Source of the DNA: Anaerolineae bacterium
Lineage (GTDB): Bacteria > Chloroflexota > Anaerolineae > Aggregatilineales > Phototrophicaceae
Assembly: GCA_025454525.1 (NCBI GenBank)
Contig: JALOOG010000023.1
Location: 1-42,341, forward strand
DNA length: 42,341 nucleotides
Direction: 5' to 3'
The first letter of the stretch is position 1. Each line of letters begins with the position of its first letter. The notes under the pieces are model-generated. The model saw only the letters and a list, made by a program, of their open reading frames with translations. It was not told where the DNA came from and searched no databases. The translations under genes were made by a program, and so were the position numbers. Positions 5,238-17,117 of the stretch are shown here, piece after piece.

Positions 5238-5345
5238 CGGTTTAGTGTTGATTTTAGCCGTGTCGGTGAGCGTGATGTATGGTAAAAGGTTAAGTAAGGG
5301 TAGGGTTTAACGGCTCATAACAGCTTTTTCTTTCTTTTCGGTCAG

Positions 5346-5440
5346 TAAGCTCAAAAAAACACCTTACCTTATGGAGACACACCACCCCCACATCACGCGG
5401 GCCGATTCCCACCCATGTATGGGGGTTGGACGCAAGAAAT
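5346..5440 (-). repeat. Diverged copy of the CCCCACCC intergenic repeat
   Basis: The plus strand from AGTAAGCTCAAAAAAACACC to GGACGCAAGAAA aligns, with indels, to the reverse complement of 17002-17117 (AGTAACCTCAGAAAAACACC ... GTCAGCAAGAAA). Together with the 190-nt element beside it, it makes one inverted block shared with 16793-17117. Confidence 0.6.
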
Positions 5441-5465
5441 TTTTCTGTACCTACTTCTGTGGTTC

Positions 5466-5655
5466 AAAGCTTTCCCAGAAGCTTTTCCATACCTATGCAA
5501 TTTCCGCATCAATTTGAATCTTCTAACGCAAAAGTGGACAAATGTTACGACTTTTTCGCTCATCTGTACTAAGATGACCCTATCGTTATTCGATCACGAA
5601 CGGAGCGCATGAGCATAGAGATCTTTTTCAAGCGTGTGAATTTTTAAATCTAACG
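5466..5655 (+). repeat. 190-nt duplicated intergenic element, copy A
   Basis: This stretch matches the reverse complement of 16793-16982 over 190 bases without gaps and with 9 mismatches (95%). Both copies point toward the next gene downstream, here efp, which starts 143 bases later. The element has a candidate promoter region in its middle (TGTACTAAGAT here, TGTGCTATGAT in copy B) and a 12-codon ORF with a GGAG ribosome binding site. It may be a mobile MITE-like unit, a conserved regulatory leader or a small RNA gene; the sequence alone does not choose. Confidence 0.8.
5609..5647 (+). CDS. 12-codon ORF in element copy A
   Basis: ATG at 5609 preceded by CGGAGCGC reads MSIEIFFKRVNF and ends at TAA 5645-5647. 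Copy B encodes MIMEIFFKRVNF from the same place. The frame is intact in both copies, but at 95% overall identity this is weak proof of selection. It could be a peptide, a leader or the truncated start of a lost transposase. Confidence 0.3.
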   Translation: MSIEIFFKRVNF

Positions 5656-5736
5656 TGCTACCGCCGCACTTGCCGCCGTACTGTAGCGATTGCGACCTTT
5701 GATTTTTAATGTTGACCGGTTTTCATGAGGTGGACT

Positions 5737-8828: not shown

Positions 8829-10001
8829 TTAGCGTAAGAACATCATCAACGGGTCAATCAGACCGCTCCGGATCTGTGACCAACCTGGGAAAGTCGGATT
8901 CGCCGAAGCGCGCAATTCCAGATGGAGATGCGGCCCGGTGGAGTTACCGGTGTTACCATTTGCGCCGATCTGTTGGTTGGCGGTCAGCGTTTGATTGGCG
9001 TTCACAGAGCGATATTTGAGGTGGGCATACATCGCATAGATGTGCCACCCCCCGAATCCCAGTGAAGCGAGTGTATTTTGGGTTGCGCTTGGCAATTGAT
9101 CATGGGTATAGCGCACGATCACAAAATGGCCGTAGCCGAACGCCCAATTCGGATCGTTAAAGATCCGCGTGTCCCCTAAGCTAAAGCCGTGCATCAGGGT
9201 ACTGGGCCGATCCGGCACGCAATTTTTACAATCCATCACCCGCACGACGAGACCTCCCAGAGGCCCTGCGAACATGGGTTCACCGTCGGCCCCACCGTAA
9301 TCGACCCCATCATGGCCATTGGGGCCCTGATACCCGCGCACAAACACGTATTTATCCATCGGAACGGGATAGAGACGTGAACGATCATAAGCGATATTGC
9401 GGGTGGTGACGGGAGTCGTCGGTGGTGTTGGTGTCGGAGGGGTGACAGGGGGTGGGGCGGTGGTAGTCGGAGGTGTGGTGACAGGGGGGGACGTGGTGAT
9501 GGTCGGAGTCGGAGGTGTGGTGACAGAAGGGGGCGCGGTGGTAGTCGGAGTCGGAGGTGTGGTGACAGTAACGGTTGTGGCCGGTGTCTCTACTTTGACG
9601 GTTTCCGGTGTAACGGTGACAGTTGTATCCCCCGTTTGCACGACAACTTGTGGGCGCTTGTTCGCATCACGAGCAAAGGTAAAGGCATGAGTCGGTGTGG
9701 GGATTACCCCGTAACCCCATTGGGTAAAATCGCCAGAGATACCAACGACATGGCCGCGTACCCATCCCTCTTGACCGTTGGGAAAACGCAACTTAAACCA
9801 TTGGTAAATCCGTGAGCGATCAAAGTCATCCGGGGTTTTATTCACATCTGGTTGAATATCCAAGACCGCTAAACGTGTCATGCCTTTGACGGCTTTAAAC
9901 GTCAAGGCTGGAAACGTGGTTCCGGCCCCACTTCGCACTGTAAACTCGCTGATCTTATTGTTGGGATCCAATAATCCTAAAATGTCTGCAAAATGGCTCA
10001 T
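8829..10001 (-). CDS. M23 metallopeptidase with N-terminal SH3-like domain and Thr/Pro linker
   Basis: 390 residues from ATG 10001 (GGGGGTT upstream); an in-frame ATG 13 codons earlier has no ribosome site. Residues ~1-115 resemble a bacterial SH3 domain (VRSGAGTTFPAL). A low-complexity Thr/Pro/Val linker (about 120-205) follows. The C-terminal LytM/M23 domain has the zinc motifs HDGVDYG and GPHLHLEL and a central AHLKYR. M23 enzymes cut peptidoglycan cross-bridges. No signal peptide is visible from either start, which is odd for a cell-wall enzyme: either export is non-classical, the start is mis-set, or it is a phage-endolysin-like protein. Confidence 0.85.
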   Translation of the reverse strand: MSHFADILGLLDPNNKISEFTVRSGAGTTFPALTFKAVKGMTRLAVLDIQPDVNKTPDDFDRSRIYQWFKLRFPNGQEGWVRGHVVGISGDFTQWGYGVIPTPTHAFTFARDANKRPQVVVQTGDTTVTVTPETVKVETPATTVTVTTPPTPTTTAPPSVTTPPTPTITTSPPVTTPPTTTAPPPVTPPTPTPPTTPVTTRNIAYDRSRLYPVPMDKYVFVRGYQGPNGHDGVDYGGADGEPMFAGPLGGLVVRVMDCKNCVPDRPSTLMHGFSLGDTRIFNDPNWAFGYGHFVIVRYTHDQLPSATQNTLASLGFGGWHIYAMYAHLKYRSVNANQTLTANQQIGANGNTGNSTGPHLHLELRASANPTFPGWSQIRSGLIDPLMMFLR

Positions 10002-10070
10002 GGCCAACCCCCCATTGTGAAGTAACTTAAACACCTTCAATCATGACAAGCGTTGTCTATTCGTGCAAAT

Positions 10071-10142
10071 TTAGAAAATGATGACACCAAACACGCCGAA
10101 CAACACGATACCAGGGATAAACGCAATGCCCGCCTTAACGAT
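10071..10142 (-). repeat. 72-bp tandem duplicate of the next gene's 3' end (outer copy)
   Basis: This repeats 10143-10214 with period 72 and three mismatches, and includes its own TAA stop. It lies beyond the real stop and is therefore not translated. It encodes the same last 23 residues (IVKAGIAFIPGIVLFG.. FGVIIF) with one V/L change and two silent changes. Confidence 0.9.
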
Positions 10143-11381
10143 TTAGAAAATGATGACACCAAACAAGCCAAACAACACGATACCAGGGATAAACGCAATG
10201 CCCGCCTTGACGATATTGAAGTTATACGATGCAGCCGTGGTCTTTACCGCTTCATACGCGGTTGAAAAATTCAAAAGCGCGACTCCACCCGTTGCCAATA
10301 ATAAGAATGAGCCACCATTTGCTTCAAACGCAAGAATCACCAAGAGACCGCTTACCAACAAAATCCCTAATGCGCGAGTCATGATCACGGTTGCGATCAT
10401 GTGTATGTAATACGGTAATCGTCCTACGCCGCCAAGGATTGTAGCGATCACATGGCCCGCCAATGCGGTTAAAAAGGTAATGGTTAACATGATGCCGGTC
10501 GTGATCAAAGCTGTGGGGATCACCTCAACAAAACTGGCGTTTCTTAGATTGGTCGCAGTACCGAACAAATTCGGATCGGGGATAAATTCGGTAAAGCGGA
10601 TCGGTTTACCTGAGGAGTCGTTCTCAAGCGAGATGTAGACTTGTGGGAAAGTGTCTGCTGCTAAACGACCTTCGGCGATCGCATCATTCACAGCGGTGAG
10701 ATTCGCCTCATACGCCCTAAGATAACGTTTGGACATCTCGATCGTGACAAACAACAAGATCATCGCACCGATGATCAATAACCCTGCAAACAAGGCATAA
10801 TCAAAGATCACATCGCGCCATGACCCTTTCGCGATCTTCTCGTTATGTTGATCGATCTCTTTTTGGAGTTTTTGACGGCCTTCCCGCTCAATCGCATTTT
10901 TAAATTCGCCTTTATCCGTCAACTTAGCGAAGGCCTCATCGGTGTCAATGCCGGTGACGTTCTGTACGACGCTGATAAAATAGGAATCATAACGCAAATT
11001 CGGGTTGACTTTCATCGCTTCAGCCAAGATCTTCATCGCTTTGGCGCTATTGCCATTTAGGTGCATGGTCAAAGCGGAATTGACGATCTGATTAGCGCGT
11101 TGCTCCTGATCCGCCGTCACTTTGACAGGAGGCGGGGGTTTCGGTTTGTCGGTTTTGCCTTTGTCGGGCGCTTCAGGGGTTTTGATCTCGCCTAATTGTT
11201 GTCGGATGTAAACTCCGGCCTTCCGTGCCAATTCACGGATCTCTGGATCGGGATCATCCTCGCACATCAAGGCAAGTTTTTTCAGTGCATCGCGATCCAA
11301 TTCCCGCGCCACGCCCTTCACCGCTGCTTTACGCTTAGCGGGATCACGGTCATTTAACTGTTTTAGATGTTCTTTGCCCAT
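10143..11381 (-). CDS. HEAT-repeat / Yip1-like multi-pass membrane protein
   Basis: 412 residues. The N-terminus (1-70) looks like one or two HEAT-type repeats (DRDPAKRKAAVKGVARELDRDALKKLA). A Pro-rich linker and a TPR-like helical segment (about 95-130, AKAMKILAEAMKVNPNLRY) follow. The C-terminal half carries about six membrane segments in the style of the Yip1 family. I do not know its role; the soluble repeats suggest a scaffold. The 24 terminal codons are duplicated tandemly downstream. Start ATG 11381; candidate extended -10 TGTTATCCT on the minus strand at 11417-11425. Confidence 0.65.
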   Translation of the reverse strand: MGKEHLKQLNDRDPAKRKAAVKGVARELDRDALKKLALMCEDDPDPEIRELARKAGVYIRQQLGEIKTPEAPDKGKTDKPKPPPPVKVTADQEQRANQIVNSALTMHLNGNSAKAMKILAEAMKVNPNLRYDSYFISVVQNVTGIDTDEAFAKLTDKGEFKNAIEREGRQKLQKEIDQHNEKIAKGSWRDVIFDYALFAGLLIIGAMILLFVTIEMSKRYLRAYEANLTAVNDAIAEGRLAADTFPQVYISLENDSSGKPIRFTEFIPDPNLFGTATNLRNASFVEVIPTALITTGIMLTITFLTALAGHVIATILGGVGRLPYYIHMIATVIMTRALGILLVSGLLVILAFEANGGSFLLLATGGVALLNFSTAYEAVKTTAASYNFNIVKAGIAFIPGIVLFGLFGVIIF

Positions 11382-14112: not shown

Positions 14113-16239
14113 TTATGGTTTTTGTAGGACAAATACCGAATTTCCGGCGATCGCATAAAGAATCCCGCGCCCTTGACCGGGATCGACGGCCACCCCTGAT
14201 AGCGTTGAAAAGCGATCCTCGTCAAAGATCCGGTAGCTTGCCCGAAACGTGCCGGATAAACTCACCTCGTAGATCGTGCGTGTCTCGCGATTGATGATAT
14301 ACAATGCCAAGCCGATCGGGTTCTCATCCAAGAACATCGCTTGCGCGGCGCTGATCTCTTGGCCGGGGGGAAGCCCACCATAGACAAATTCTTGACGCGC
14401 CCCGCTTAAATAACGCAATACGGTGCCGTCATTTAACAGCACATGCACAACCCCCTGTTCATTGATCGCAAAATCCACCGCGTTCCCAATGCTAGAGAGG
14501 TTTTGACCGGTAAAATATTCACGGCCAGCACTGGCATACGTCCCCGCAGTTCGATCATACCGCCAGATCTGATTTTCTGCTGGATCAAGGATATACAAGC
14601 GATCATCGCTGCCCCAAGTGGTGATGGCGATCGGGTTGCCCCACAATTCTTCGCCTAACAAGGCTTGAGCGCGACAATTTTGGGTGAGGCGACTTGGACA
14701 TTCGATCAACACACCATTCCGATCTAAGGCGTAGATCGAGTCGTTGACTTGCGAAAAGGTGATGTCGATGATCTCGCTGATCTGAAAGCCGTCTAAAGTT
14801 GCCCCCCGTCGCATACTCACAATCGGATTAGGCAAGCGAGAATATGATTGCCCATTGGCGGCCAAAATCGCCTGATACACTTGGCTATTCGTGCCGTCCA
14901 ATAAGTATAGATCTAACCCGCGCAAAACGATCCGTTTGAGCGATGCACCGGGAATCGGATCAAGCTGAATGGGCGTGACGCGAGTCACAATATTGATCTG
15001 ATCGATCACCCCTTGTCCCTCAAGGATCAAGGCGGTGATCGTGGCATCTCCGGGTCGCAAGGTCTCGCAACGGCGGGCAGCCTCCATGACCGCATCCCAA
15101 GTGGAGAGCCGTCCGCCGGGGTTACTGGAGGGAATCCCACGGGCTGTCTCTGCAACGCGGTTTAGCTCTTGCATACACTGTTCATAAGCGCTATCCCCTG
15201 TGCTAGAGACCCATAACGTTACAACCAGTGAGACGATGATGATCGGGATCAAGATCACGACTCCGGTAGCGATTGGGAGTGTGTACCAACGGCGGCCTCC
15301 TCCCTCTGGTTTGCCAAAGTAATATTCAATGGTTTGGTTGATGAACTTCATGCTTCTAGCCCCTTGCCGGGCGACGAAACTAAGTCCCCGTTGAATCTCT
15401 GCAATCAGACGATCCCCAGTTGTACCGAATAAACGCCGTAGGGGATTCGGGCGTTTCGCCGTGTTTTTGGTGCGTTCTTTGGCTACTGCGGCGCGCACCG
15501 CCTCGGCGATTGCGGCCGAAGATTCCCCTTGAGGCACTGGAATCGGTGCGGGGGCTTCGGGTGGGACAAATTCGATCACGGCAAGGTTGAGTTGCAAACG
15601 AGCCAATTCTTTGAAAGCGACTAAGACAAGCGCGATGTCCTCATGCGACAAGGCTTCGGTGATCTGTTCAAGGGTAAATTGGGCGACATTGGTGTCTACC
15701 AAGACCAAGCGCGTCCCGTTGTCTACGCGATGGCGTGTTAACTTGACCTCTGGGGTCGGTTTGGCCCCTAACGGTACACCGGACAAGCGCTCCGGATGAC
15801 TTAGATCGTCTGGTAACGTTTGAAGCTTGCCGTCATGTCGCAAGATGGCCGCATTTGACCCTACACGCCCGATGATCAAATCTGGCCCGCGCAAAACAGC
15901 ACAGATCACACTCGCTTCATAGGGGCGTTGTTTTTCTTTTTGGTTGTGATCAAACAAGTTCCCGTTGATATGATTTAACATATCCCGAAGTCCGGCGGTC
16001 ACGCTGCCGGTGCTGTTGAAGTAGCGTTCGGCACTCAATTGGGCCAACTGCTCATAAAAGGCGGTTGGCGCAACCGCTTCACCCGACGGTAAGATCAACG
16101 CAAAAAACGTATCGGTTTCGCGTCCACGGGCGGATTTCGTGGGGGCCACTTCTACTAACAGCCCCGGCGGGGCCATGTTGATGGCACGTCCACTCACGAT
16201 ATAGAGATGACCGACTAGGGCCTCAAAATCAAAAGGCAT
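14113..16239 (-). CDS. PP2C-like domain, membrane segment and NHL-type beta-propeller protein
   Basis: 708 residues. Residues 1-225 resemble a PP2C phosphatase fold (ASVICAVLRGPDLIIGRVGSNAAILRHDG), but the usual GDS metal motif reads GSN (127-129), so catalysis is doubtful. A basic linker leads to one membrane helix (about 322-345), then an extracytoplasmic part with repeated short beta units of propeller type (ILDPAENQIWRYD, VLLNDGTVLRYLSG) ending LYAIAGNSVFVLQ. The cytoplasmic pseudo-phosphatase and outer sensor-like propeller suggest signalling. Its ATG overlaps the stop of the receiver gene (TAATG), so the two are translationally coupled. Confidence 0.65.
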   Translation of the reverse strand: MPFDFEALVGHLYIVSGRAINMAPPGLLVEVAPTKSARGRETDTFFALILPSGEAVAPTAFYEQLAQLSAERYFNSTGSVTAGLRDMLNHINGNLFDHNQKEKQRPYEASVICAVLRGPDLIIGRVGSNAAILRHDGKLQTLPDDLSHPERLSGVPLGAKPTPEVKLTRHRVDNGTRLVLVDTNVAQFTLEQITEALSHEDIALVLVAFKELARLQLNLAVIEFVPPEAPAPIPVPQGESSAAIAEAVRAAVAKERTKNTAKRPNPLRRLFGTTGDRLIAEIQRGLSFVARQGARSMKFINQTIEYYFGKPEGGGRRWYTLPIATGVVILIPIIIVSLVVTLWVSSTGDSAYEQCMQELNRVAETARGIPSSNPGGRLSTWDAVMEAARRCETLRPGDATITALILEGQGVIDQINIVTRVTPIQLDPIPGASLKRIVLRGLDLYLLDGTNSQVYQAILAANGQSYSRLPNPIVSMRRGATLDGFQISEIIDITFSQVNDSIYALDRNGVLIECPSRLTQNCRAQALLGEELWGNPIAITTWGSDDRLYILDPAENQIWRYDRTAGTYASAGREYFTGQNLSSIGNAVDFAINEQGVVHVLLNDGTVLRYLSGARQEFVYGGLPPGQEISAAQAMFLDENPIGLALYIINRETRTIYEVSLSGTFRASYRIFDEDRFSTLSGVAVDPGQGRGILYAIAGNSVFVLQKP

Positions 16240-16598
16240 TACCCACCCTGAAGGACTTGCGTCGCAAGTTCACGGATCTCTGTGGGACGAATGGGTTTTA
16301 GGATAAATTTCACCCGCAAATTTGGCTGTTGCATTCGCTCAAATTGTTTGTTTGAGCTGACAATCACCGTCAATGCGGTTTGTAAACGTGGTTCTGCCGC
16401 AATGTAATTCAATACGATTACCCCATTGACATTCGGAAGCAGCATATCCAGAAAAATAATATCTGGGGTATTCTTCTCAAGAAACGCTAACGCCTCAGCA
16501 CCGTCTATGGCTTCAACCACTTGAAAACCTAACGGTTCTAAGACACGTTGATAAATTACACGCAGACTCGCATCATCTTCCACCACTAGCGCCAACAT
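16239..16598 (-). CDS. Stand-alone response-regulator receiver domain
   Basis: 119 residues forming just a CheY-like receiver: acidic pocket EDD (7-9), phosphoacceptor Asp51 in FLDMLLP, and Lys101 in ILKPIR. There is no output domain, so it must act by protein contact. The 1-base TAATG overlap with the PP2C-like membrane protein points to that protein as its partner. Upstream (16599-16792) is non-coding and leads into element copy B, which is transcribed in the same direction. A dedicated histidine kinase is not adjacent; the kinase at 18.5 kb has its own NarL-type partner. Confidence 0.9.
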   Translation of the reverse strand: MLALVVEDDASLRVIYQRVLEPLGFQVVEAIDGAEALAFLEKNTPDIIFLDMLLPNVNGVIVLNYIAAEPRLQTALTVIVSSNKQFERMQQPNLRVKFILKPIRPTEIRELATQVLQGG

Positions 16599-16792
16599 GC
16601 AGTCTACAATTCACCTTACACCTTATTTAACAGTTCAACAAGAGAGTGTACTATAAGCGTCACGGTGCGACAAGTTATTGTCGAAAGCTTCAAATTAAAC
16701 AATCATTTTAAAACGAACGCGATCATCCGGTTGGCCATTTACGGCGGCGGTAGGAAGGAAAAATTTTTCGGCAGCATCAGCGTCATTAAAAT

Positions 16793-16982
16793 CGTTAGAT
16801 TTAAAAATTCACACGCTTGAAAAAGATCTCCATGATCATGCGCTCCGTTCGTGATCGAATAACGATAGGGTCATCATAGCACAGATGAGCGAAAAAGTCG
16901 TACCATTTGTCCACTTTTGCGTTAGAAGATTCAAATTGATGTGGAAATTGCATAGGTAGGGGAAAGCTTCTGGTAAAGCTTT
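16793..16982 (-). repeat. 190-nt duplicated intergenic element, copy B
   Basis: Reverse complement of copy A (5466-5655), 181 of 190 identical, no gaps. Copy B has a good extended -10 (TGCTATGAT, plus-strand 16873-16881) where copy A has TACTAAGAT, so only B seems well placed for transcription. It points toward the receiver/PP2C operon about 195 bases downstream. Confidence 0.8.
16801..16839 (-). CDS. 12-codon ORF in element copy B
   Basis: Minus-strand ATG at 16839 after CGGAGCGC reads MIMEIFFKRVNF and stops at 16801-16803. It corresponds to the ORF at 5609-5647. It would be expressed from the extended -10 at 16873-16881. Leader peptide, small membrane-active peptide or gene relic are all possible. 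Confidence 0.3.
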   Translation of the reverse strand: MIMEIFFKRVNF

Positions 16983-17001
16983 AAACCCCAGAATTAACCT
17001 T

Positions 17002-17117
17002 AGGAAAGTTTCTTGCTGACGACCCCACCCTAGCCCTCACCCATACATTGGGAGGGAACTGGTGTGCGTGGCATGGGCTGATCCGTCTGCATGGGTGGGG
17101 TGTTTTTCTGAGGTTAC
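17002..17117 (+). repeat. CCCCACCCTAGCCCTC intergenic repeat, copy beside element B
   Basis: It aligns to 17440-17556 across its length (AGGAAAGTTT..TTGC, CCCCACCyTAGCCCTC, a hairpin CCCTcaCCCA/TGGGagGGG, GGAACTGG, CATGGGTGG, TTTCTGAG). The pair lies in direct orientation on either side of tRNA-Arg. Such CCC-rich palindromic repeats are common between genes in filamentous Chloroflexota. Confidence 0.7.

Follow-up and report, generated by a model that had tools for sequence, protein, structure and literature searches.

A high-copy intergenic repeat with a built-in promoter-like start in an uncultured Anaerolineae genome, probably a MITE-like family

The stretch of DNA considered here (the window) comprises 42,341 nucleotides of contig JALOOG010000023.1 from an uncultured Anaerolineae bacterium (assembly GCA_025454525.1). 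It contains an intergenic element in two inverted copies, termed copy A and copy B. Copy A lies upstream of efp, the gene for elongation factor P, which extends from 5799, and copy B faces a receiver-domain gene with its start at 16598. An earlier sequence-only reading of the window had both copies pointing at their next downstream genes, the second being a receiver/PP2C operon. The orientation towards efp and the receiver gene holds, but PP2C was not borne out: the gene after the receiver gene (14116-16239) matched 0 Pfam families at E ≤ 0.001. A search of the window against Rfam matched only a tRNA-Arg, and nothing at the element. The features of the two copies are as follows.

5350-5462, plus strand: separate GC-rich repeat adjoining copy A; found elsewhere apart from the element and inside other copies
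5530-5575, plus strand: copy A core block, comprising the right dyad half ATGTTACGACTTTTTCG and the extended -10 (model match 5530-5678)
5565-5575, plus strand: copy A degenerate extended -10, TGTACTAAGAT, from the sequence (core 35-mer at 5537-5571)
5602-5605, plus strand: copy A Shine-Dalgarno-like GGAG, from the sequence
5609-5647, plus strand: copy A 12-codon open reading frame (ORF) MSIEIFFKRVNF, a subfamily-specific peptide with no codon-level constraint family-wide
5646-5678, plus strand: copy A tail with an internal deletion (TCTAACG...ACCGCCGCACTTGCCGCCG), from comparison with locus L003
5679-5694, plus strand: copy A weak right-end-like sequence TACTGTAGCGATTGCG, 11/16 (at least 11 is also reached in 6/126 reversed controls)
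16679-16698, minus strand: copy B possible decayed right end TTAATTTGAAGCTTTCGACA, a weak candidate overlapping a 22/35 class II right-end match
16742-16802, minus strand: copy B tail (TCTAACGATTTTAATGACGCTGATGCTGCCGAAAAATTTTTCC...ACCGCCGCCG; model match 16734-16918)
16801-16839, minus strand: copy B 12-codon ORF MIMEIFFKRVNF, from the sequence
16843-16846, minus strand: copy B Shine-Dalgarno-like GGAG, from the sequence
16873-16918, minus strand: copy B core block (model match 16734-16918)
16883-16873, minus strand: copy B intact extended -10, TGTGCTATGAT, from the sequence
16986-17114, minus strand: separate GC-rich repeat adjoining copy B, from the sequence

The match between the two copies is real, as 5466-5655 and the complement of 16793-16982 agree without gaps at 181 of 190 positions (95.3%). 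The ungapped inverted pair is longer than had been noted, extending over 234 nt (5422-5655 and 16793-17026, 211/234 identical), and the right part of copy A is an internally deleted tail that reaches to about 5678, perhaps 5694, beyond its previously assigned end. The adjacent GC-rich repeat, which had been described as shared between the copies, does lie partly within the 234-nt pair, but it belongs to a separate family and is not part of the element. Both 12-codon ORFs behind GGAG were correctly identified (MSIEIFFKRVNF in copy A, MIMEIFFKRVNF in copy B), as was the restriction of a canonical extended -10 to copy B (TGTGCTATGAT, where copy A has TGTACTAAGAT). The window pair may be close sisters, with the copy at locus L003 next.

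The element is a family of at least ~140 detectable copies, scattered between the genes of one uncultured Anaerolineae genome. When a 301-nt region of the window was compared with its own genome by BLASTN, a check proposed in the sequence-only reading, at least 42 matches were found (the best 40 of 241 first-look candidates being scored) and the element was thus not limited to the pair; part of these matches are the adjacent GC-rich repeat alone. The 35-nt core occurs with up to 3 mismatches at 82 genomic places (48 forward, 34 reverse), against 0 for the reversed control. A sequence model of 230 positions, built from 47 copies chosen from 68, gave at least 150 matches in the genome at E ≤ 0.01 among the best 150 of 1430 candidates. 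In the loci retrieved from the genome, dropping matches below 40 bits left 147 distinct ones, among them five pairs that each represent fragments of a single interrupted copy. Near-full-length copies, spanning at least 150 model positions, account for 126 of the 147; these 126 form the set analysed below, the 21 shorter matches being left out. The true copy number is probably higher, since some contigs end inside the element. Contigs C78, C126 and C152 all end in the same ~99-nt stretch at the element core, so that copies have probably been undercounted where the assembly breaks at the repeat.

Other repeats are also present. The GC-rich repeat (TCTCAGAAAAGTATCCCACCC...GGTTGGACGCAAGAAACTTTCCTGAGATTACTTCT) is a second interspersed family with inverted-repeat-like ends of its own. 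It is found in the window at 5350-5462 (plus strand), at 16986-17114 (minus strand) and also near 487 (minus strand), away from the element at loci L011-L013, joined to the left side of 27/126 element copies, and inserted inside or after element copies at loci L007, L058, L093, L100, L261 and L268. The window further contains an 82-nt direct repeat (90-171 and 385-466, 99% identical, 295 nt from start to start), two tandem 72-nt units (10069-10212, 96% identical) that overlap a minus-strand ORF at its 3′ end, and an array of a G-rich 42-nt unit inside a minus-strand ORF (9423-9584).

In the family consensus, a decayed inverted end is followed by a dyad overlapping an extended -10, a Shine-Dalgarno (SD) sequence with an ATG, a variable middle and a conserved tail. 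Inside the ends, the consensus reads in outline AAAAgTCGTaACAnnTGTTACGACTTTTTCGCTCATCTGTGCTATSATC and a spacer, followed by AAGGAGnATCnGATGA, a middle of ~50 nt, cAATCTTACGATCnnCCTAACCACGTTGCCGCTGTCGCCGAA, and then a T-run with GCC repeats behind it. The unit that can be aligned between pairs of copies lies roughly between the start of the core and position +210, giving a core unit of about 215 nt. From what is known of sigma-70 promoters, we take TGTGCTATSAT to be an extended -10 promoter; its commonest forms are TGTGCTATCAT and TGTGCTATGAT, present in 57/126 copies. The dyad measures 28 bp with 13-bp arms, lies near the left end and merges through its right half into the extended -10. Its left arm is variably preserved: in the 27/126 copies that a string criterion shows to be joined to the GC-rich repeat at this place it matches at 7-9 of 13 positions, and among the 98 copies without such a junction it matches at 11 or more of 13 in 39 (control maximum 7) and at 7 or fewer in 27.

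Several properties of the family are those of MITEs. The element is short, interspersed and present in high copy, and it contains no transposase gene. Terminal inverted repeats, a further hallmark of MITEs, are seen in less than half of the copies but far more often than in the control: the end motif GGGYAATCGCTTCAAAA is matched on the left at 11 or more of 16 positions in 37/126 copies, and on the right at 12 or more of 16 in 26/126, the reversed motif giving 1 in either case. Both ends match at 11 or more positions in 16 copies, 15 of which measure 244-303 nt and one 177 nt; a few of these 16 may be due to chance, because the right-end control reaches 11 or more in 6/126. A check for target-site duplications, which had also been proposed, revealed no clear duplication when the flanks of the 16 two-ended copies were inspected by eye, only loose YA/TR dinucleotides.

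A transposase-bearing partner was not recognised by eye among 14 of 46 end-motif matches that were sampled, with ~480 nt read at each. Four of these 14 loci match the element model weakly and some have an inverted partner motif (at least 13/17); the ORFs at three sampled loci with such a partner motif likewise contained no transposase recognisable by eye. The ~99 nt that contigs C78 and C126 and one end of C152 have in common at the core had suggested a longer repeat. On C152 (~5250-5650, minus strand; loci L327/L328), the core promoter stands directly before a helix-turn-helix gene whose first 56 residues match HTH_Tnp_1 (E 2.6e-5), and the element tail lies in frame within the linker of this gene. 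Homologues of the gene were found in 20/100 relatives, where most of the listed matches end at about query residue 45-70 and a few reach residue 84 or 96, and their linkers appear by eye to be without the element tail. The locus was considered as a parent transposon, but is tentatively read instead as pieces of the element inserted or recombined in a host gene.

The sequence-only reading had offered three guesses for the element: a regulatory leader, a small RNA or peptide gene, or a MITE. The MITE is the best supported of these, on account of the inverted ends in a subset of copies, the high copy number and the lack of room for a transposase, whereas neither a structured leader or RNA nor a conserved peptide gene is supported. 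Codon usage was analysed in 57 of 80 core sites (from 82 matches), the others having no recognisable SD and start, or no tail. Differences between the middles of these 57 copies are spread evenly over first, second and third codon positions (101/101/101). Single changes in the ATG frame comprise 28 synonymous and 105 non-synonymous ones, and the shifted frames give 33:79 and 31:95; the synonymous share is thus no higher in the ATG frame, and the ORF looks neutral. A gene for a conserved peptide was rejected on these grounds, as the frame shows no sign of purifying selection. In-frame stops between start and tail occur in 12/57 copies, where shuffles give 28.6 ± 3.7 and the two other frames have 22 and 27, but this deficit is not proof of translation, since the 57 copies are related and ancestry may explain it. 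Relative to the ATG, the tail is entered in frame 0 in 21 copies, in frame 1 in 32 and in frame 2 in 4. Given these differing frames and the lack of codon-level constraint, the peptide motif EIFFKRVNF, shared by the window copies, is an accident of their subfamily. A reading frame in the tail (SYDPPNHVAAVAE...), suggested by indels that seemed to be multiples of three, was also discarded, with a stop within 24 codons in 53/119 copies.

A structured RNA, such as a riboswitch or leader, was rejected as well. The RNAalifold consensus of 47 aligned copies contains 0 pairs, and neither this consensus nor individual folds of 12 copies, judged by eye, show any structure in common. The tail had seemed able to pair with the SD, but this idea was dropped because sequence variants did not seem to follow the pairing.

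Conservation along the element is uneven. Mean pairwise identity across the 126 copies is 68% in the left arm, 87% in the core, 48% in the spacer, 72% from SD to ATGA, 42% in the middle, 71% in the tail and 65% in the T-run and GCC repeats. Recruitment by the model favours conserved blocks, but picking copies by their tail should not favour the core, and identity remains at 84.5% in the core and 68.6% in SD-ATGA among 38 copies picked because their tail has diverged. The ends are worse kept than promoter, SD and start codon, the reverse of what would be expected from mobility alone. The core is conserved equally in copies opposed to and aligned with their flanking genes: out of 33, its mean score is 30.6 in 14 copies of orientation '--', 31.0 in 3 of orientation '+-' and 29.8 in orientations '-+' and '++'.

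Placement between genes was classified by simple ORF calling (at least 90 codons). The 126 copies comprise 51 in divergent gaps, 33 co-directional and 14 opposed ones in tandem gaps, 3 in convergent gaps and 25 lacking one flank. Copies in tandem gaps thus tend to follow the gene direction (33 versus 14, p = 0.008). Convergent gaps are avoided, with 3/101 copies compared to 11.6% of background intergenic bases (p = 0.003), the background consisting of 93 gaps of 60 nt or more that lack the element, taken from the window and from the copy-bearing loci. The distance from the element end to the start of the co-directional ORF has a median of 106 nt (n = 101, range -95 to 818). Promoter-like sites are enriched within the 110 nt behind the element, with a score of at least 10 in 17/123 (1-4 in shuffles) and of at least 9 in 49/123 (21-27 in shuffles), and the downstream genes therefore appear to own separate promoters. 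Their 101 protein products represent 174 Pfam families, the commonest of which is found in 5 proteins, and their functions are mixed.

Outside its own genome the element is scarcely detectable. In a draw across the class, the model matched 1/396 genomes at E ≤ 1e-4 when the best 5 candidates per genome were considered; this one is the element's own genome, and the other 395 gave no match under the same conditions. A 29-nt core pattern had no match in a genome collection or in viral contigs, two further patterns had none in viral contigs, and the 301-nt region had none among phages and plasmids, all in collections that may omit the genome itself and very near ones. That the element might be the truncated end of a known insertion sequence, which the sequence-only reading had named as a refuting outcome, found no support in the Rfam, phage, plasmid and viral collections. 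The 35-nt core pattern is absent from 60 relatives, all of them from other genera, and the model gave one weak match each in 7 of 60 relatives (E 6.6e-4 to 0.0096), 5 of the 7 being the promoter block. Judged by EF-P, the closest relative with a name is Chloroflexi bacterium OLB13 (77% identity); the short region upstream of its efp does not contain the core. A 22-nt part of the promoter occurs with up to 3 mismatches at 13 places in 12/120 other genomes (reversed control 0), with the rest of the element not visible around these matches. They are read as a shared extended -10 promoter signal, their excess over the control being otherwise unexplained. Among the relatives, loci L302, L303 and L307 are single 22-nt promoter blocks with 2-3 mismatches; one relative's block precedes an ORF that by eye is recA-like, and the two others precede ORFs in two genomes of one genus.

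Taken together, the large number of copies, their inverted ends and small size, the restriction to one lineage and the mixed functions of the neighbours argue that both stretches in the window probably belong to a MITE-like, non-autonomous interspersed repeat family with a built-in promoter. The copies have the appearance of long-decayed remains of small mobile elements and not of a novel type of regulatory RNA. The best-kept copies are mostly 244-303 nt long, running from GGGYAATCGCTTCAAAA to its inverted copy, and a transposase recognising these ends would have carried the element into intergenic DNA immediately ahead of gene promoters. Decaying copies may each give rise to a short transcript and a leader peptide, and in some places low-level readthrough from them may contribute to transcription of the next gene. 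Counting against a mobile element are the lack of a recognised transposase partner among the 14 sampled loci, the lack of any visible target-site duplication, and the survival of promoter, SD and start codon beyond that of the ends, whatever the direction of the copy.

Comparable elements are known from other bacteria, and promoter-carrying MITEs have been described in several, according to one account (PMC10969869). Correia (NEMIS) elements of Neisseria are portrayed as containing sigma-70-type promoters, mapped immediately upstream of genes (PMC10969869, PMC2229807), and the present family resembles them, in outline and by description, in being short and high-copy, with inverted ends, a promoter and no transposase. 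Target duplications, TA at the termini and, in one form, an IHF site are reported for Correia elements in the relevant parts of PMC2229807; the present family differs in that a conserved SD and ATG accompany its promoter, and in that no target duplication was found. The BOX, RUP and SPRITE repeats of Streptococcus pneumoniae are likewise outlined as short and intergenic, nearly confined to one or two species and subject to nested insertions, and some large BOX elements as containing ORFs (PMC3049150, PMC10969869). They share with the present family the nature of short intergenic repeats. However, they are characterised as over-represented between convergent genes and extensively structured (PMC3049150), whereas our family is depleted in convergent gaps and has no common fold. 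For the ERIC/YPAL class of enterobacteria, PMC2229807 gives repeats of 100-200 bp with open reading frames, an orientation-dependent effect of ERIC, and transcripts with long stem-loops, unlike the present family, in whose 47 copies no common fold was found. Literature searches aimed at Chloroflexota listed no title or abstract describing such a family there.

Other explanations have to be weighed against the MITE-like one. A recent segmental duplication with only two copies would fit the 95% identity of the window copies and their shared flanking GC-rich repeat. It had been named as a possible outcome in the sequence-only reading, but it is false in view of the at least ~140 genomic copies, and we give it practically no credence. 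Alternatively, the copies could be cis-regulatory leaders, kept, whatever their origin, as promoters or leaders of the genes that they face and forming a regulon under a dyad-binding factor. The avoidance of convergent gaps (3/101), the bias in tandem gaps (33:14), the median of 106 nt to the co-directional ORF (n = 101) and the far better conservation of core, SD and ATG than of the rest would all suit such a role. We nevertheless consider it unlikely, as the core is equally conserved in copies opposed to flanking genes, the genes appear to have promoters of their own (17/123 versus 1-4) and the downstream functions are mixed.

That orientation does not matter to the conservation of core, SD and ATG would instead suit a family of small independent genes, encoding a protein or RNA that acts in trans, with promoter and start kept whatever the orientation of the neighbours. 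The shortage of in-frame stops (12/57 versus 28.6 ± 3.7) points the same way, but the 57 copies are not independent and the deficit may reflect ancestry; the codon positions are equal, the 28 synonymous and 105 non-synonymous changes resemble those of shifted frames, the ATG frame meets the tail in all three frames (21/32/4) and 47 copies have no RNA fold in common. Such a gene family is therefore rather doubtful. Dispersed binding sites, in which the dyad is the functional part of a genome-wide array for a DNA-binding protein and the rest baggage, would account for the core being the best conserved block (87%) and for the near-perfect dyad in many copies. This appears distinctly improbable, given that many copies have lost the left dyad arm yet kept the promoter half, and that it leaves the conserved SD and ATG unexplained. 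A last possibility combines mobility with later selection: a mobile repeat may have spread ~140 or more ready-made expression starts, each with an operator dyad, extended -10, ribosome site and start codon, of which promoter, SD and ATG would now be selected copy by copy, with peptide and ends drifting. Initiation itself would be the function: what counts would be that transcription and translation begin ahead of the gene's own promoter, and not what is made. We regard this as unlikely.

For the MITE-like family that we favour, the sharp contrast of a well-kept promoter (87% identity) and a well-kept SD with start codon (72%) to a drifting middle (42%) and drifting ends is not expected from mobility alone. 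As many copies reside in one genome, this contrast could be tested statistically by a single RNA-seq experiment. For annotation the family carries a warning, in that short ORFs before ordinary genes of this organism, efp included, can be repeat-borne.
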